Positions 10,070 through 27,511 of a stretch of 34,265 nucleotides of DNA are shown here, in pieces. Positions within the stretch are counted from its first letter, which is position 1. Every line of letters starts with the position of its first letter. The position numbers and the translations under genes were made by a program. Location: the NCBI GenBank assembly GCA_012031415.1, contig JAAUTN010000029.1, positions 1 to 34,265 on the forward strand. The letters run 5' to 3'. The notes under the pieces were generated by a model. That model did no database searches. It saw only the letters and a program-made list of their open reading frames with translations, and was not told where the DNA came from. The stretch comes from Leptolyngbyaceae cyanobacterium SM1_4_3 (GTDB taxonomy: Bacteria; Cyanobacteriota; Cyanobacteriia; Elainellales; Elainellaceae).

Positions 10070-13000
10070 TTAGAGACGGCTGAGGCGATCGCGCAAAATT
10101 TCTGCCTGCTTTTCTGCCTCAGCTAGCGAGCCTCTAGCCGCCTGAACCACATCTGCTGGGGCTTTATCAACAAATTTGGGGTTGCTGAGGCGATCGCGCA
10201 AGATCTGGCTTTCAGACTCTGCTTTTGCTAGATCCTTTCTTAGCTTAGCTTGCAGCGCTTCGACATCGACTACGCCTTCCAGCGGAATGAGAACCTGTAC
10301 GGTGCCCACAACGCCAGCGATCATCTGCTGCTGGGGCAGCTTTTCGACCGTCAGCGTTTGGGTGGGTGTTAGCGGCTGTGGTGAGGGTTCTTGAGACTTA
10401 GAAGATATTCTGCCTGCAACTTGTGCAGACAGCGCGTTTAGCTGTTGAGCAAAATCCTGGCGATCGTTTGCACGCAGCAAGAAGCGGTAGACAAACCAAA
10501 CAGTATATCCTAATCCAATTAGTTTTAAGAAGGGCGAGATCAGCAGCAAGCTATCGACTGTGTTTAGCACAGCCAACGTGACTTTAACGACAATCAGCAC
10601 CGCCAGAATTAGCCCCAGGGCGATCGCTGGCTTACGGTACGACTTCAACGGCTCAGTGTCGGGTCTAAGAGGTCGCGGAATTACCGGACGTTCGATCGCT
10701 TCAATGGTCAAATTCTCAACTTTGGCAAGGTCTTTGATGTAGTCCTGCCCTGCGGTGAGGATTTGCTGTTCGCGATCGCTCTCGGTCTGCAAGTTAGTTT
10801 GAATCCTAACCCCTGGCTTAATGTCCGCTTCAGCCCGGAGGTTACGAACGGTACGAATGGTGCCAATGAGCAGATCAAACTGAGATTCTAGATCAGCATC
10901 AATCAGACTTTCATCTACTTCGGGGTAAGCCTGAAGTGCTAGATAACGATTTTCCTCAGCCTGCGTGAGCGTATGCCAAACTTCTTCGGTAATGTGAGGC
11001 ATGAATGGGTGCAGCAGGCGCAAAATGCCGTCTAGCACGTGGGCAAGCGTTTGCTGAGCGACTTCCCGCGATCGCAGTTCGGCTGGGCTAACTTCGGCTG
11101 ACTGGGCCTTAAACAGCCTGGATTTAACCAGTTCGATGTACCAGTCGCAGAAATCGCCCCAGATGAATTCATACAGCCCTTTGGCGGCTTCTCCTAACCC
11201 GTAGTTATCAATGTAGTCACGGGTCTGGCGGACTACCTGGTTATAGCGGGAGAGAATCCAGCGATCGCTCAATTCCAGTTCACCCGCCTGGGGTTTACCC
11301 AACTGCTCTGGCGTTTTGCCGTCCAGATTCATCATCACAAACCGGGACGCATTCCACAGCTTGTTGGTAAAGTTGCGCGATGCCTCAACGGAAACCGACT
11401 CATCGGTCTTGCGGTTATATTCCAGGCGAATGTCTTGCCCTGCCCCGGCAACTTCTCGAATCAGCGTATAGCGCAGGGCATCCGTGCCGTACTTGGCGAT
11501 TAGAATCAGCGGGTCGATACCGTTGTTTGACGACTTCGACATCTTTTTGTTATTTTCATCCCGCACCAGACCGTGAATGTAAACCGTGCTGAACGGCATC
11601 TTTCCGGTAAAGTGCCCCGCCATCATGGTCATTCGGGCGACCCAGAAGAAAATAATGTCGAATCCCGTGACTAGCGTGGTGGTGGGATAATAGCGCTCCA
11701 GATCGGGCGTTTGCTCCGGCCAGCCCATTGTTGAGAAGGGCCACAAACCGGACGAGAACCAGGTGTCTAGCACATCCGGATCTTGGGCAAGCTGAACGTC
11801 ATCGCCAAACTGCTGTCGGGCTTGTTCCCAGGCGTTTTCCTCACTGGTGGCGACGACAAAGGGTGTGTCGTCGGTAATCTGCCCGTCAGTTTTGTTGATG
11901 GCGTACCAGGCGGGAATTTGGTGCCCCCACCAGAGTTGGCGAGAAATGCACCAGTCTTTCAGGCTGACCAGCCAATCCCGATACACTTTCGTCCAGCGTT
12001 CAGGGACGAAGACGGGATCGTCTTGCTGGTCGAGAAATTCCAGCGCCCGGTCTGCCATAGGGCGAATTTTGACAAACCACTGGGTTGAAAGCAGCGGCTC
12101 GATGGGGACTTTGCCGCGATCGCTATACGGCACCGTGTGTTTATAATCCTCCACCTTCACCAGGAAGCCTTCCTCTTCCAGGCGCTTCACCACATTCTTT
12201 CTCGCCTCAAACCGATCCTGTCCCTCAAACGCTCCCACATTTGCATTGAGTGAGCCGTCTTTGTTCATGATGTTGATGAAGGGCAGGTTGTGGCGTTTGC
12301 CCATCTCAAAGTCATTCGGGTCGTGGGCAGGCGTAACTTTTACACAGCCCGTACCAAAGCTGGAATCGACGTATTCATCTGCGATAATCGGAATTTCGCG
12401 CCCCATGATCGGCAGGGTCAAAGTCTTGCCTACTAGATGCTTGTAGCGCTCGTCGTTGGGATTGACGGCTACAGCCGTGTCACCCAGCATCGTCTCAGGG
12501 CGCGTTGTTGCGACTTCAACGGAACCGGAACCATCCGTTAGCGGATAGCGGAAGTGCCAGAGGTGTCCGTTGACCTCCTGGTTTTCAACCTCCAGGTCAG
12601 ACACGGCAGACTGGCTGGCAGGGCACCAGTTCACCAGATATTGACCGCGATAAATTAGCCCTTCATTGTAGAGGCGCGAGAAGGCTTCCAGGACTGCTTT
12701 GGAAAGACCTTCATCCATCGTGAAGCGTTCGCGCGACCAGTCTACGGAAACGCCCAAGCGCCGCAGTTGTCCTACAATCGTGCCGCCCGATTCTTGCTTC
12801 CATTCCCAGGCTCGTGTTAGGAAGGCTTCGCGCCCAACCTGGTCACGGGTTTTGCCTTGCGATCGCAACTCCTTTTCCAAAATGGTCTGCACGGCAATGC
12901 TGGCGTGGTCAGTTCCCGGTAGCCACAGCGTATTGCGCCCAATCATCCGGTGATAGCGCACCAGCGTATCGATCAGGGCGTTCTCAAAGGCGTGACCCAT

Positions 13001-13162
13001 GTGCAAACTGCCCGTCACATTGGGCGGCGGAATCACGACGCAATATGGCTCACCCGGTTGATTAGGGTCTGCTTTAAAGACCTGATTGTCTTCCCAGTGC
13101 TGCTGCCATTTGGCTTCCGTCAGGGAGGGGTCGTATTGGCTGGGCAAGTTGGTTGCAGTCAT
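10070..13162 (-). CDS. valS: valyl-tRNA synthetase with CAAD membrane-anchoring domain
   Basis: Class I valyl-tRNA synthetase that charges tRNA-Val. It has the HIGH-type HMGH (54-57, in [15 protein letters not shown]), an editing domain (about 205-360), the KMSKS loop (540-544), the anticodon-binding helical domain and the C-terminal coiled-coil tRNA arm (about 955-1030). Between these last two sits an extra domain at about 825-925 with two hydrophobic helices ([20 protein letters not shown] and [19 protein letters not shown]). This is the CAAD domain, known in some cyanobacterial aminoacyl-tRNA synthetases and shown in Anabaena to anchor ValRS to thylakoids. This explains the 1,030-residue length against about 900-950. 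The gene is monocistronic and intact, and no purine-rich ribosome site precedes its ATG. Confidence 0.96.
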
Positions 13163-17237: not shown

Positions 17238-17297
17238 CGACCCGTCACTAGATTCCAATTTTGAATTTTTAACTTTTCATCCATTCAAGAGGTTTTT

Positions 17298-18775
17298 ATG
17301 GACAAGCTGATTCATTATCCAATGGTGATTGGAGAAGAACTCGTCTCTACAGGTAGCGAAGATTTGATTGATCCCGCGACGGGAAAAGTTTTTGCCACTG
17401 TTGCCCTGGGCAGTAAGGCAGATGTTGATCAGGCGGTGGCGATCGCCAAACAAGCTCAAATTGTCTGGGCTGCTCTCTCCTATGGAGAACGCAGCGCAGC
17501 CATGCTAAAACTCGCCGATGCCCTGGAAGCCAAAAGTGAAGAACTGGCAAGGCTAGAAGCCAAAATTCCGGGAAGCCACTGAAACTCACCGTTGAAGGCG
17601 ACATTCCCTTTGCGATCGACAACCTGCGCTACTTTGGCTCCGTGCTGCGTCGTCAAGAAGGCAGCGCTGCCGGAAGCTACATCGGCGGCTACACCAGCCT
17701 GATTCGACGGGAACCGATCGGCGTAATCGGCGCAATTACCCCCTGGAACTATCCCTTTATGATGGCGATTTGGAAGCTTGGGCCAGCCCTGGCAGCAGGC
17801 AACGCCGTTGTGATCAAGCCCGCGCCCAATACACCCATCACCACCATTGAACTGGCGAAAATTGCTCTAGAGTGTGGCTTTCCTGCTGGATTGATCAACG
17901 TCGTCACAGGTGGAGCCGAGGTTGGCGAAGCCATTTGCACCCATCCCGACACCCGCATGATCAGCTTCACGGGCAGCACCCGCACAGGCAAGCGCATCGC
18001 CGAGCTAGCCAGCCCAATGGTCAAGCGTGTCACCCTGGAATTGGGTGGTAAAGCGCCTTTTGTCGTCTTTGCAGATGCCGACATTGAAGCAGCGGCTCAT
18101 GGTGCTGTAGCGGCTTCCTACGTCAACAGCGGACAAGACTGCACCGCCGCCACTCGAATCTACGTGCAAAACGAGGCGTTTGACCAGTTCCTCAGCCGCT
18201 TTACCAATCTGTCTAAGCAGGTGAAGGTCGGCAATCCATTTGAGGAAGGCACGGACATTGGTCCACTGGTCAGCGAAACCCAGCGGCTCAAGGTCAAAGG
18301 CTATGTCGAAGAAGCTCGTCAGCAGGGAATTAAGGTGGCGCTGGGTGGCGAACTGCCAGAAGGCGAAGGCTTTTACTACCCGCCAACCATCCTGGTCGAT
18401 GCGCCCGAAGATGCAAACTGCGTCTGTGAAGAAATCTTTGGCCCTGTCGTCGTTGTCAATCGCTTCTCAGATGAGGCTGAAGCAATCAAGTTAGCAAATA
18501 ACACCCCCTACGGCTTGGCAGGCAGCGTGTGGACGCTCAATGTGCAGCGAGCCATGCGAATGTCAGCCGCGATGGAGTGCGGTACGGTCTGGGTAAATGA
18601 CCACATCCCGATCGCCAGCGAAATGCCACATGGTGGCTTCAAGCAAAGCGGCATCGGCAAAGATATGTCCTACTACGCACTAGAGGAATATACCGTCGTT
18701 AAGCACGTTGTGTTTGACAACACCGGAGAACAGCGCAAACCCTGGCACGCTGTCGTTTTAGGGGAAGCAAATTAG
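17298..18775 (+). CDS. patD: gamma-aminobutyraldehyde dehydrogenase (PatD/YdcW-like), apparent frameshift
   Basis: NAD-dependent aldehyde dehydrogenase closest to bacterial aminobutyraldehyde dehydrogenases that oxidise 4-aminobutanal, from putrescine, to GABA. Segments close to E. coli YdcW include TSLIRREPIGVIGAITPWNYP, MISFTGSTRTGK, catalytic Glu in ELGGKAP (about 248) and catalytic Cys in YVNSGQDCTAATRIY (about 282). The frame breaks at 17562-17565, where AAAA seems to lack one A: adding it restores ...EAKNSGKPLKLTVEGD... and makes 493 codons including the stop. Without the correction the first frame ends at 17582. It lies 275 bp after the PotA-like gene, which fits polyamine import followed by breakdown. 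The exact aldehyde is inferred. Confidence 0.85.
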
Positions 18776-20107: not shown

Positions 20108-20806
20108 TTAGTAAGCTCCGCTCTTGTTCAAGACAGACTGAATCGTTTTCAGGATTAGAGCGATGTCATAGCTAACCGACCATTTTTCCTGGTAGGCAAT
20201 GTCCATCTTAACGATGTCTTCAAAATCTTCGACGGTAGAGCGACCGTTAGCCTGCCATTCACCTGTGATTCCAGGCTTGACTAGTAGACGCTGATAGTGA
20301 TGACGCTTGTACTTCATTACCTCGTCCACGGTGGGTGGACGAGTGCCAACTAGACTCATTTCCCCTTTGAGAACATTCCAAAATTGGGGAAGTTCATCCA
20401 GGCTAGTACGGCGCAGGAAGCGACCAACTTTGGTGACGCGAGGGTCGTTGCGGTTTTTGAAGATGTTGCCCTTTGCCTGATTGTGAACCAGATGCTTCAG
20501 GTTATCAGCTTCTACAACCATTGAACGAAACTTCCAGATGCGGAAAGTATTGCCGTTCAGCCCGCAACGGATTTGGCTATAGAAGATTGGTCCAGGGTTG
20601 TCAAACTGGATGGCGATCGCCACTGGAATTGCTACAAGTGTAGTAATCGCTAGACCAACCAGCGCTCCCAGGATATCAATCAGGCGCTTAGCCTTGCTAT
20701 TTATAGAAGGATGCACCTCTGCGGAAGAGGCGATGATCTCGTTCAAGTGAGCCAGCGCAGGTGAGTGAGTTAACAAGGAAGAAGGAGGGTTGGAAGTGGT
20801 AATCAC
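20108..20806 (-). CDS. polyprenyl-phosphate sugar phosphotransferase (bacterial sugar transferase family)
   Basis: Initiating enzyme of exopolysaccharide or lipopolysaccharide unit synthesis, which transfers a sugar-1-phosphate to undecaprenyl phosphate in the inner membrane (WcaJ/RfbP/PglC class, PF02397). After a 38-residue N-terminal tail come the amphipathic KRLIDI lead, a hydrophobic re-entrant helix (about 46-66), the [12 protein letters not shown] motif, WKFRSM (91-96), the catalytic Asp-Glu in [25 protein letters not shown] (134-158), and the C-terminal [12 protein letters not shown]. The domain is the short form without extra N-terminal membrane helices. The start is GTG, with a GAGGAG 13 nt before it. 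It is a single gene here, with no polysaccharide cluster alongside. Confidence 0.93.
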
Positions 20807-21083: not shown

Positions 21084-24000
21084 TTATTCCTGGGTTAGCA
21101 CCCCTAACCCAACGGTGAGCGGTTCTGATAGCTTTTGGTGTGTGCTGGCTGTAATCGTGCTGAGATAGCTGCGGAAGTGATTCCACTGCTGATAGTTAGG
21201 GCGATAGGTTTGGCTCTCGAGTTTTTGGAACAGCGGAGCCGCTAAGAGCATTTGATAGTCTGGATTCTGCCTGGATTGGGGAGCCAGTAAATCAGCGTAT
21301 TTTTCTGTGGGAACCAGTCCAGGCGGAAGGTGTCCTTCCAGGAGAGCAAGAATGTGTAGACGACAAGCTTGGGTATTAATGCCTCGCCGCTCTAACATTT
21401 GCATGATTTGAGGGAGAGAGAGGGGCTGGTCGGGAAAGGCTCTGAGCAATTCCATTAACAAGAAATAGTCGCTGTATTGCTGGCGGGGCAGGTTGAGTAC
21501 CTGGGGATGGAGCGGTAGGGTTGCCAGCCCATAAGCGACTCGGCTACAGGTAGGGAGGCGGTTTTCTTGAGTGGAGCCAGCGCGACTGTTGGTATAAGTG
21601 TCTTGGATGATGGTGGCATTCGGCAGTTTTTGTCGGAGCCAGCGGGCGATCGCCCAAAGGAAGCCGTGCCGCCCGTACAAATCACCTGATTAATCGACTG
21701 AATCGGTACACCAGTTTGAGTGAGCAAAGCATTCAATTCTCGGTTTAGCCGCTGAATGTAAGGCAACAGCACCCGACTGCCCAATTCGCGGCGCATCACC
21801 GTCCACTGCTGGTCGCCCAATTCTAGGTTAAATTGGTCTTGCTGTTGCAGGATAAGTTTCAAGTATCTCGCGGCTTCCAGTAAGCTTTGCCCTATTGGTA
21901 AGCTTTCAAGTCGCTGCTGTAATCGCTGTCGGTTGAGAGGGTCTGGCTCTCCAGGTGAGGGTAGATTCAAGCTCTCTAGTCCTAAGCTATCCCAGGTCAT
22001 CGTTTTAGATGCCGATTCAGACGGCTGCCAGTGCCATCCGTCTACAAAAGCACCCGGTTTGGCGGTCTGCCCTGAACCAATGTAAGTATCAGAATTGCCT
22101 CGACGAGGCTGACGTGACCAGGTAGGATACAGCAATTGGCAAATGATATCCTGATCTAGCGCTTTGCCAGCATAGGGTAAGCTGCGAAGGGTGAAGTCTT
22201 GATAGGTCAAATTTCGTAAATCGCTAGGCAAGTCAACCAGCGCCATCTCGGTGACACTTGCCCCAGCGCTAATGACCAGGGTGTTGCCCTGCCAATCGGT
22301 GTTGTAAAGGTAGGGTTTTTGGGAGAGGTTGTTGGGCAATACAACTGCTCGACCATCTGAACTACGCAATCCAGATAGGAGGGTGGCGATCGCCTCTTCA
22401 ATAAAGAAAATTTGCTCTGGATGGGCAACCAGTTTGGCTCCCAGCACCGCTTCTCGAATGTTAAAGGTGTAGGTGTCTGACCAATTGGCGGGATAGCCCA
22501 TGACTACACCAGCAAGCTGGCGTAGTGCTGTTTGAAAAGTGGCTGCATCCAGTCCAACGGCTGCACAATCTAGGGCTGAAGGGGTTGGGGTAGACAGGCG
22601 ATGATAGCTGAGGGTTGCTAATAGGGTTTGCAAGGACTGATGCAGCCAACTCATTTCTAGCTGATGCTGATCAGACCACTGCAAAACTGGCTCCCAGCCT
22701 GAAGTCTGGGGGGAATAATGGGGAACGCCGAGGCTAAGATAAGGCTTGAAGTCTCGCAGCAATAGTTTGGTGGAATCTGTGTCGATTGCTCCGCTGGACT
22801 GGTTGCGCTGGTTGAGGTCAAGGGCAAGAGAGCCAATTGCCACCGAGGTGACAGCGTTTTGATCCTGGGTTGGGGACGGTAGGTTAGGGTCTGTAGGGGT
22901 GTCGCGCCCAGTAGACAGGTAGGCGATCGCAGGCAATCGAAATGACTTGTCTGCAACAAAGCCGCCTTGATCTTGAGGTCGCGCCTCTGACCAGTAGATT
23001 GGATAAAGTTCGCAGGTTGGGCGGTTAAGCAGAACGGCAGAGATTCCCGTTGTACCAAAGTCAATTCCTAGATACCAATCTTTATCAGTTAGCTCGTCGG
23101 CGGATTCGCCGGATGGAGTTTCACCGTGAAGTTCTGCCTCCAGACCGGGTAGCCCAAAGCTCGGATCAAGCAAAGCAATGTCTGGGAAGGGGTTGGCATC
23201 ATCCAGGCGGACAGCGGGGAGATCGGTCGGGTCATAGTCGGCAGGAAGGCGATCGCTCCAGTCGTCTATTCCATCTTCTTGGGTTTCGGTAGGCGTTTCG
23301 GGGACTGCAATCTCTTGTTCTGGAGAAGGGGCGATCGCAGAGTCGCTCAGGTTATCTTCAGGAACAAGTTCAAGTTCTGCGGCAGGGGTTATTTCAAGGT
23401 CTATCTCAGACTCTAACTTTGGCTCCATCAAATCTGTAGAAGAGTCAGTTAGTTCTTCATCGGGTAAGAGTCCAGACGTTATTTCTGACTCTGGCTCAGA
23501 TTCGACTATCAGATCTGGTGTCAGTTCTGCAAGTTCTGCATCAGCCCTTGCATCTGGGTCAAATGCCTCCGTCAGGTCTGAATTTAGAGTTTTTTTTTCA
23601 GAGTCTTCAGAGTCTGGTGGCTCTATTCCAAGAAAATCAAGATCATCTGATTCAGAACTGGAATCTATCTCAAAGGGAGGTAAATCGGTCGCAGAGCCAT
23701 ACTCAGCCTCAGCCTCTAGCTTGCCCGCCTCAGCCGTATACAAATCAGTTGTAGACCCATATTCAACTGGAGGAAGCGCTTCCAGGAAGTCTAGATCAGT
23801 TGCAGAGCCATATTCGACGGGCGGTTCAGGTTCGGGGAAAGCATTTTCTAGTGTCCAACCTTCAAAGTTAGTCTCTAAATCTGATGATGGCGGCTCAAAG
23901 TCACTAAGTTCGTCAACCTGATTTGACGATACAACGGGAGGTTCTGTTGGTTCTACTTCGGGTGCCTGCTGAAACAGGCTATCTAGCCCTTCTAGGGTGA

Positions 24001-27000
24001 AGGTGTCTGGTTCTTCTCCAACGCTCGATTCCTCTATCTCTTCAAAGTCAGCGAAGTCTAGTCTTGCAGAACTGGATTCGTCAGGTAAAGCAGGCGGGGC
24101 AGAAGAGACGGGCACATTGTCTGAAGCAGAAACCTCTGGCACAAACTCACCCAAAGCCAATTCTTCTGGGACTGTGGACTGTGTGGGTGGTGACAGATCA
24201 AATAGCTCCTCTAAGGTGGTTTCGCTGGCGGTGGTTTCGCTGGCTAAGGAATCACTTGGAGAAACATTTGGGGATGGAACTTCTTGCTCGGTTAGGGTGT
24301 ATTCGCCCTCTGGTAGGGGTGTTGAGGCAAAGTCATCTGGCGGCAGCGCAAACAGGTCTTCTAGTGCCAGGTCATAGTCAGACGGCTGTGAAGGTGGTTG
24401 GCTCTGCTCAACGGACTGGTCAGGTAAATCGGTCTGGTTAAGCGCGTCAGGAGTTTGGGCTTCCGAAGGTAGAGTTGGAGCCGTAGTATCGACTTCAGCG
24501 ATCGCAAACAAGTCTTCTAAAGTTGTTTCTCGCTGCGGTGGAAGTGGGGCAGCCAGATCCTCAAAATCATCACTCAGCAGATCCTCTTCTAATTCCAGGT
24601 CAGATTCAGCCGACGGGTCAGGCAGAGGGTCGAAAAGATCTGCCAGTGTGGTGTCCTGGTCCAGCAGAGGCAATTCGGCTCCTGGTCCGCTGGTAAAAGT
24701 TTCTAGTTCCTGGTCGGCGAAAGTTCCTAGCTCCTGGTCAGCGAAGGTTCCTAACTCCTGATCTTCAAAAGAGCTAATTTCCTGGTCGGCGACTTCAGCA
24801 GCAAGTGCCTCCTGGTAGGAGAGCAAATCTGATAAGTCGGAGGTGTCGGGAAAAAACAGATCTTCTATTGTGTCAGGCGGTTCAGCCGGAATGGGAGAGG
24901 TGTCTGGAGTGGCGATCGCCTCAATTGAGGCTTCAGCAGGCTCAACTGATGGTTCAGTCTCAACTGGTTCCAGAAAATCTATTTCTTCCAGCAGCGGATC
25001 TGGAGCCAGGGCTTCGCTTGGCTCGGCTGTGGGTTCTGCCTCAGTCCAGTCTGCCAGCGTCCAGTCAGGGGATGGCGTTTCTAAGTCCGCCTCCAGATAG
25101 GAAAGGTCGCTGCCCTGCAAGCCTTCCAGGTTTGATAGGTCTGCTGTCAACTGCTGAAGGACATTTGGGTCAAGCTGAAGGTCTACCGGGGGGGGAGATT
25201 CGAGATTCTTCGGTCGCTAGCAAATCTTCATCAGGAGCAGCCGTAACATAGGTATCTTCGGTGGGGGCGATCGCCTCAGGCTCAACCTCAGCGCTCGTTG
25301 ATTCCAGCAAGTCAGACAGGTTAGCAATGGTGTCGATTTCCTCTGGAAGGGCAGGTTGTGTCTGAGGCGGCGGCAAGAGTTCTGCTGTGACATCATCAGA
25401 TTCATCTTCCACAGCAGGCAGCAGTTCCTCATCTGATAAAGCCATCTCCGGCACATCAGCGGCAATGCTGTCTGTTGCATCTAGTGGATCAATGAGTGGC
25501 GTATCTTCTAGAAAGTCAAGCGAAAAGTCTTCCAGGGCTGAGTCTGCTGATGTCTCGGCTAACAAAACCTCTGGCGGCAGCGAAGCTGTCTCGGCTGGAT
25601 CGCTCAATCCGCCAAACAGTTCATCGCTTAACTCACTGCTCAGGAAAGCATCATCGGACAGATCAATGGACTGCTCACTGCTCTCGCTGACCAAATCCCC
25701 TTCATTAACCAGGTCTCCGGGGATGTTAGCCTCCTGGACTGGCTCTGGCGAAGTGGCGATCGGTTCAATGCCTAAATCAGCAGCCAATTCACTGGCTGAC
25801 AGATCGGTGAGGCGAGTTTCAGATCGTTCAGTGGCGGCGGCTCCGCTCGGTTCAAAGATACTGTGATACAGGTCGTCAAGCTGATTGTAGAGGTTGTCGG
25901 GTGAGGCGACGGGCGCAGCAGACAGGGCGGCTGACTCTGTTGGGGGTAAGTCAATCTCGTCTTCGTCGGGTGGTTCTGGGGCGATCGCAGATTCCAACAG
26001 GACGGGCGTTGGTTCCGGTTCGTCCTGAGCAGGTTCTTCGTGCAGTTCGACGCTAAGCTGATTCAGCAAATCAAGGGCGGAATCCAGATCAGCAATTTGT
26101 GGTTCTGTTGGGGTTGGAGAAGCCGAGCCAGTAATGTTGGCGGCGGGGGGTTCCTCAAGCGGGAGGTCAAACGGATCGTCCTGCTGGAATAGAGCAATCT
26201 CTTCTAATGAGGATGAAGAGATTCCTGCTTCGGTAAGCTGAAAATCATCACTAACCTGGAATGCGGTAACGTCATCATCTGCGTCAGCGGGAGCGTCTAG
26301 AGGCAAATCGTCTAGCTCAAAGGTGAGTAAATCTAGATCTTCTAAATCAGACTCGGTGACAGGAGCAACGGGAGCAGGCATAGAGTCTTCTATGTTGGTC
26401 TGCTCGGATGGGTTGGTCTGCTCGGATGCAGTAATAGGGGCGATCGCATTTAGCTCATTCAACAGCTTATCGATTTCAGCATCCGTCACCTGGCTAGTCG
26501 CTGATGGCTCTTCGACTGCCTGCTCAGGTTGAGCAGGTGTAGTTTTGGCTGGGCTGGTCGCAGTTGTTCCAGGTGTGGTGGGGCGATCGCCTTGCAAGGT
26601 TGGGCGCGGCTCCCAGTCTGAAGTTTGAATGGAAGACTGAAGATAAGAAGACGCTCCTCGCCCCAACTCTTCAGCCAGACGGTTCATCAGAGCGGCAAAC
26701 ATGGCTTCACCCTGCTGACCCAGGCTGTGCATTCGATCAAGCCCCTGCCCCAGAGATTCCTGGTAGCTCTTCACACTGTCCTGAAGGGAATCAAACACAA
26801 CCCTGAGTGTGGTGTCCAGCTTGAGAATCAGTTGGTCTGACTGCGTTTGAATCATCTGTAGCTGCTTCAGACGCTCGGCTGGAGTCAACAAAGACTGAGA
26901 AGATTCTGTTCGCAAGTCATTTTCTGGCTCAGATGCCGCCCTCAAGACTCGTTCTGGCGATTGAGATTCCAGTCCGGCTACCATTTGCGCGACCTGCCCC

Positions 27001-27511
27001 GATAGGTCTTCACGCAAACGCGCTGTTAAAGATTGAAAAATTCAGCCGTCAACCGCTGATCGGCTTGGGGCAGGGCATACTGCTGTCGCTCCGCTTCAAG
27101 CTGTTTGAGTTCCTGAATCAGGCTGTCTCGCCGCTGGTTCATCTCGTCCAAGTCTGACCGCAACGGCTGCATGACATTTGCCCGCAGATAGTTCATCTCC
27201 TCTAAGACAGCCTGCAAAACCTGCTGCGCTGACTCTACGGCTGCACCCTGTCCAGGCTGTGGCTCTCGGTTCAAGCCTGATGGCATCGACGAGCCATAGG
27301 CAATCAGATCACTGCCCGGACTGTTTGGCTCAAACTCTGACGCAGAAACCTGTTGTTGAAGAGAAACTAGATAGTTTCGAGTTTGCTCTAAAACTTGACG
27401 TTGTTGGGTTGCATCTCCAGACATGACCCAGGGCAACCGGGGACTGGCTTTACCCAACACACCATCAATGTCATTAATCAGCGCTTGAATTTGAGCTTTT
27501 TGAGGAGTCAC
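21084..27511 (-). CDS. giant Hsp70/actin-fold ATPase with coiled-coil N-terminus and acidic disordered linker (three apparent frameshifts)
   Basis: Open frames at 27511-27026, 27017-25170, 25150-21455 and 21680-21084 form one gene broken by single-base indels: A5 at 27036-27040 (needs one more A), G8 at 25188-25195 (one too many) and a missing base near 21660. Corrected length is exactly 2,143 codons. The GTG-started N-terminus (about 1-295) is helical (KASPRLPWVMSG, DEMNQRRDSLIQELKQLEAE). Residues about 300-1470 are acidic and disordered with recurring TLEDLF-like motifs. A divergent Hsp70-type nucleotide-binding domain follows (about 1478-1950): phosphate-1 GIDFGTTGISAVLLN, degenerate phosphate-2 ISAGASVTEMALVDL, adenosine motif CTGGTAS. 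The tail of about 190 residues is unknown. I know no function. The intergenic context gives no partner. Confidence 0.75.
23688..23826 (-). repeat. threefold YGS(A/T)TDL repeat in the acidic linker
   Basis: The linker encodes PVEYGSATDLDFLEALP, PVEYGSTTDLYTAEA and EAEYGSATDLPPFE in succession, with recognisable DNA repetition. It is one of several internally duplicated segments of this region. Confidence 0.75.
24698..24793 (-). repeat. 24-bp tandem repeat, four units, in the acidic linker
   Basis: Four imperfect 24-bp units (24698-24721, 24722-24745, 24746-24769, 24770-24793), encoding the octapeptide series EDQELGTF / ADQELGTF / ADQELETF. A unit of 24 bp preserves the frame, so copy number can vary without breaking the protein. 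Confidence 0.85.

Follow-up and report, generated by a model that had tools for sequence, protein, structure and literature searches.

Results

Organization of the gene

The DNA analyzed here (the window, 34,265 nucleotides from Leptolyngbyaceae cyanobacterium SM1_4_3) carries on its minus strand four consecutive open reading frames (ORFs) in alternating frames, at 27026-27511, 25170-27017, 21455-25150 and 21084-21680. A first-pass annotation of this DNA had read them as one gene of 2,143 codons after three corrections, and that assignment is borne out. The frames of the ORFs imply one base missing, one extra and one missing, which by direct arithmetic takes the length from 6,428 nt to 6,429 nt, or 2,143 codons including the stop. 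In genome G001 of the same genus (Cyanobacteria bacterium FACHB-471) the whole gene lies in a single open frame of 2,257 codons from stop to stop, identical to the FACHB-471 gene at locus L051.

21084..27511 (minus strand): complete gene, from a GTG start codon at 27511 to a stop at 21084; three single-base indels in the assembly, intact in G001/L051
27020..27045 (minus strand): missing-base frameshift between the head ORFs, break near 27026-27041; probable assembly error
25180..25195 (minus strand): extra-base frameshift at a C8 run, break near 25187; probable assembly error
21648..21660 (minus strand): missing-base frameshift at a G-run beside GCGATCGC, near 21655; common to genome G002, probable systematic error

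Comparison with the two sister genomes suggests that the three indels are probably assembly errors. A second window gene, of 503 residues (plus strand, 17265-17603 and 17474-18772), is frame-broken here and intact in both G001 and G002, pointing to general indel errors in this draft and making the sequencing errors supposed by the first-pass annotation the likelier source of the breaks. A dead gene with three real frameshifts is a quite unlikely reading of the window copy. The break near 21655 does recur in G002, which is itself broken elsewhere, at other homopolymers, and has only this break in common with the window. Against a dead gene stand the damage to the 503-residue gene, the nature of the C8 and G-runs as typical error sites, and the codons between the window breaks, which are intact and G001-like.

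Domain architecture and predicted fold

The gene encodes a head, a linker, an ATPase and a tail, in this order:

26641..27511 (minus strand): N-terminal head, about 290 residues, predicted long helices/coiled coil; kept in the family
23084..26640 (minus strand): acidic low-complexity linker; composition taken from the G001 ortholog, with a linear motif conserved in relatives
21540..23083 (minus strand): divergent domain of predicted Hsp70/actin fold, an ATPase; from alignment A1, AlphaFold2 (AF2) of the L051 ortholog and Foldseek/VIA
21084..21540 (minus strand): conserved C-terminal tail, predicted mainly helical with a small hairpin; from alignment and AF2 model

Matches to a head HMM occur in 143 of 160 loci. 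The helical head described earlier is recovered in the AF2 model of the L051 head (pLDDT 75, pTM 0.31), with helices of 54, 39 and 86 residues, and on this prediction the coiled coil is probably an oligomerizer. A fold search with the head was rejected, given the pTM of 0.31 and the wide matching of coiled coils. The linker, put forward in the first-pass annotation as huge, acidic and disordered, is indeed acidic, with about 24% D/E and 2% K/R in the N-terminal part of the G001 ortholog; its 1,170 residues, treated there as special, are not, since relatives have linkers of about 250 to 1,700 residues. Within this otherwise variable linker, relatives keep a linear motif, ASPxENLL..VDQLYxSLFG, which in the window lies at about 25850-25950 (minus strand) and reads ASPDNLYNQLDDLYHSIF. 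Linker LxxLF motifs are modestly enriched (108 observed vs 36 expected); as a family-wide linker repeat they were rejected, just 23 of 132 genomes having at least two copies.

The ATPase model of the FACHB-471 ortholog, made from a 50-sequence input (pLDDT 84.5, pTM 0.88), aligns by Foldseek and VIA-align with DnaK at Z 20.4 (rmsd 3.8 over 363 residues) and with MreB at Z 18. As modeled, this part has an actin-like nucleotide-binding fold, closest to DnaK. The first-pass annotation had proposed a divergent Hsp70/actin ATPase and had named the lack of such a fold in the C-terminal part as the result that would speak against it; structure prediction finds the fold. The tail, about 150 residues and mostly helices in the AF2 model of the L051 ortholog, had been called novel; it is real, and it is conserved in the family.

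With the nucleotide-binding domain of Hsp70/DnaK the protein shares the predicted fold (Z about 20), a GIDxGTT phosphate-1 motif (GIDFGTTG in the window) and an adenosine-type GG motif (CTGGTASF). Unlike Hsp70/DnaK, it places the ATPase after a head and linker rather than first, apparently lacks a substrate-binding domain recognizable by sequence, and carries a degenerate AGAxxTELAL in place of the DxGGGT phosphate-2 loop. The degeneracy of this loop had been noticed in the window, where it reads SAGASVTEMAL, and by alignment it is a trait of the family, the AGAxxTELAL type being found in most members of alignments A1 and A2. With such a loop the protein may hydrolyze nucleotide weakly or in an altered manner.

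PilM and MreB are actin-like ATPases of the same superfamily; the protein differs from them in its additional head, linker and tail and in a Pfam score under the cutoff for the member shown. A Pfam and NCBIfam scan of the window pieces and 32 relatives returned weak superfamily matches and no more, with no curated family above its own cutoff for the members shown. PilM_2 was the commonest match (22/32), at 17.8 bits in the first member against a cutoff of 27. HSP70 matched 9/32 (best E 0.0012), never above cutoff, and the first member had no HSP70 match listed at E up to 0.1. A sequence search of the PDB gave weak DnaK/PilM stretches and nothing stronger.

Distribution and gene neighborhood

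The ATPase part has relatives in 47 of 60 near genomes and, across the class, in 163 of 291. The genome collection yielded 301 loci with ATPase relatives, and the 80 kept are all cyanobacterial by title. A search across cyanobacteria recovers homologs with the same order of head, acidic linker, ATPase and tail; this order is constant, and linker length is very variable. By these sequence matches the gene represents a widespread and apparently unstudied cyanobacterial family and is no peculiarity of the window genome; the first-pass annotation was right in calling it cyanobacterial and apparently right in calling it unstudied.

Across 150 loci, a divergent regulator of the Crp family recurs as a neighbor at 99, a DUF2232 membrane protein at 78 and a sugar transferase at 36, the last present in the window as well:

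20108..20806 (minus strand): sugar transferase, recurrent downstream neighbor, on the same strand in 36 of 150 loci

The sugar transferase hints, as a weak lead, at cell-surface polysaccharide. The HmpF and DnaK1 motility systems were also considered for this neighbor, and no tie to them was shown. At L046 (16488-17999, minus strand) and L047 (16112-18001, plus strand), a few kb away from the gene, part of the same head domain precedes a permease sequence of EamA/DMT-like type.

A conserved A-run at which the reading frame changes

Between linker and ATPase lies a feature that the first-pass annotation missed, of the type at which the frame changes in 40 relatives:

23590..23598 (minus strand): A9 run on the sense strand, the longest A-run in the window; candidate conserved slippage/frame-switch site

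The window gene is in frame at its own A9 run. Our survey covered 150 non-redundant genes (86 fused, 48 non-fused and 16 without a visible head, mostly at contig ends), 80 of which have an A9-A11 run between linker and ATPase, exactly A10 in 62 of the 80. Both parts are visible in 134 non-redundant genomes, and 48 of these hold them in different frames or in separate ORFs. In 40 of the 48 non-fused genes the overlap of the ORFs contains an A9-A11 run, of length 9 (n=5), 10 (n=30) or 11 (n=5); 31 require a shift in one direction there (-1, or one added A) and 9 the opposite. The core ORF has no ATG or GTG before the ATPase in 13 of the 40. Over the 60 codons before the run, the head frame has 0 stops and 20% D/E and the core frame 4.1 stops; from the run to the ATPase, the core frame has 0 stops and 17% D/E and the head frame 6.5 stops. 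The acidic coding signal thus changes frame exactly at the run, which argues that one protein is selected across the switch.

Sequencing errors at homopolymers, or decay into pseudogenes, are an extremely improbable source of the split genes. Homopolymers are error-prone and the window assembly errs elsewhere, yet the coding signal is intact on either side of the run, splits are found in the one-contig genomes L036, L043, L046, L156, L160 and L172, and fused genes, the window gene included, conserve the run as well. The frame is broken in 44 of 72 genes with a run of 9 or more and in 3 of 61 without (Fisher p 1.6e-12, a test that ignores relatedness). On a tree of 146 cores, built by FastTree only, there is a minimum of 15 changes in frame state and of 13 in run presence; the genome counts themselves are inflated by relatedness.

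A Nodosilinea-type clade, a distant clade consisting of L041, L176 and L177, and some of the Nostocales lack the run; their genes are simply fused, so that two forms are not needed everywhere. In L171 and L173 the head-linker and the ATPase are separate neighboring genes, each with a possible start, without an A-run; from this apparent gene fission, it seems that the parts are able to function as separate chains. L143, L161 and L165 have the run and also breaks for which it cannot by itself account. The break region of L161 is an assembly gap of N, and L165 has an in-frame stop soon after the run.

Neighboring genes, rather than random ones, served as the chance control for A-runs: A10 or more occurs in 0 of 833 and A9 or more in 5 of 833, and the window's own genome (7.8 Mb) has just 20 exact A9 sites. 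Lysine codons of the core are divided between AAA (315) and AAG (314), and the bases flanking the run are not conserved, indicating that it is the nucleotide run that is kept and not lysine. A slip-prone homopolymer of A9 or longer thus appears to be kept by selection. Phase variation, in which replication slippage in the A-run toggles the full-length protein between cells, would also employ a homopolymer within a coding region, and frame state does differ among related genomes, as between L170 (A11) and L172 (A10). We consider it very unlikely, since run length is steady at A10 in most genes with the run, six related genomes (L153, L157, L162, L164, L166 and L167) all have A10 and the same frame state, and on/off switching would not predict the frame-specific stop described below.

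A frame-specific stop after the run

Two codons past the run of the window gene there is a stop in an alternative frame:

23584..23586 (minus strand): TAA in the alternative frame, which would end a short isoform; sequence GAAAAAAAAACTCTAA

Among genes outside the Nostocales, a stop in one particular frame follows within 6 codons of the run in 55 of 59, compared with 27% of control positions. By class, the nearby stop is found in 8/8 fused, 30/31 split-1 and 9/10 split-2 genes. Most Nostocales with the run have no close stop after it, and slippage there may be incidental. By frame arithmetic, reaching the nearby stop in fused genes takes one A fewer or two more; the same arithmetic led us to reject one extra A as the route. 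Because the conserved stop may have been inherited from recent frame flips, we give it moderate weight.

These frame relations bear on programmed -1 ribosomal frameshifting, in the manner of E. coli dnaX, on A_AAA_AAA or A_AAA_AAG. A suitable A_AAA_AAR heptamer is present in the head frame of all 31 genes with the -1 (or one added A) direction, and structure is slightly in excess downstream of the run (mean z -0.44). The heptamer, however, is unavoidable within A9 and hence weak evidence, and SD-like stimulators lie near the run in just 7 of 57 genes. Moreover, in 9 genes the shift at this type of run has to go the other way, leaving this explanation with 31 of 40, and a -1 shift in the fused genes misses the frame with the conserved nearby stop. 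Ribosomal frameshifting is in our view unlikely.

Discussion

Slippage on an A9-A11 run accounts for all of the frame states, for both directions of shift and for the fact that fused genes retain the run. We infer from these sequence comparisons, with a probability of about 0.74, that RNA polymerase slips on the run in a programmed way and that the gene yields a long form containing the ATPase and a short form of head plus linker. In the proposed mechanism, the polymerase would slip on 9 to 11 As, producing mRNAs that differ in their number of As; some of these would be translated into the long form, and others would meet the stop immediately after the run and give the short form. Both the transcriptional nature of the slippage and the presence of both forms in cells would follow from this reading. 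In IS elements of Nostoc, A8-A10 runs have been interpreted as slippage sites (PMC1088944), which makes slippage by a cyanobacterial RNA polymerase plausible.

Our best guess for the cellular role is a coiled-coil scaffold bearing ATP-binding modules, with the short form setting their number. Mixed oligomers could tune how many ATPase modules each coiled-coil assembly carries, a speculation for which DnaX tau plus gamma offers a comparison. We also put forward, tentatively, the possibility of a frame-neutral gene: with two-way slippage on A10, the downstream DNA frame might drift among its three states while the same two proteins were still made, the short form being a coiled-coil scaffold that subunits with the ATPase would dilute.

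Few examples of programmed slippage are available among ordinary chromosomal genes of bacteria (dnaX, type III and type VI secretion genes, transposases). The present gene would add a candidate that many cyanobacterial families keep, with related genomes storing the same product in different DNA frames, and comparing these genomes offers a test of how far slippage is tolerated and what it is for. Annotation pipelines may show the gene as two ORFs or as a pseudogene in many genomes. The analysis also brings to notice an unstudied and widespread cyanobacterial ATPase.

A9-A10 runs drive slippage in dnaX, with a transcriptional A9 site for tau/gamma in Thermus thermophilus and an A10 site with two ORFs in Chlorobi (PMC1088944, PMC3711429). 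Like dnaX, our gene has an A9-A10 coding run, long and short products (putative here) and lineages that encode a fused or a two-ORF state. Unlike dnaX, it encodes an unrelated protein, its site lies where a disordered linker meets an ATPase, and a single family includes fused, -1 and +1 states. In Citrobacter rodentium tssM, frameshifting in transcription yields two length variants from an interrupted gene (PMC4256274); as presented there, it is a single secretion-system gene and not a site shown to be kept phylum-wide. Among the papers searched, we found none tying slippage to a cyanobacterial Hsp70-like gene, although the 146 recoding clusters in the supplement of PMC3711429 could list it unnamed.

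Elsewhere in the window, the valyl-tRNA synthetase at 10070-13162 on the minus strand contains an inserted CAAD membrane domain. Such an insertion is a known cyanobacterial feature.
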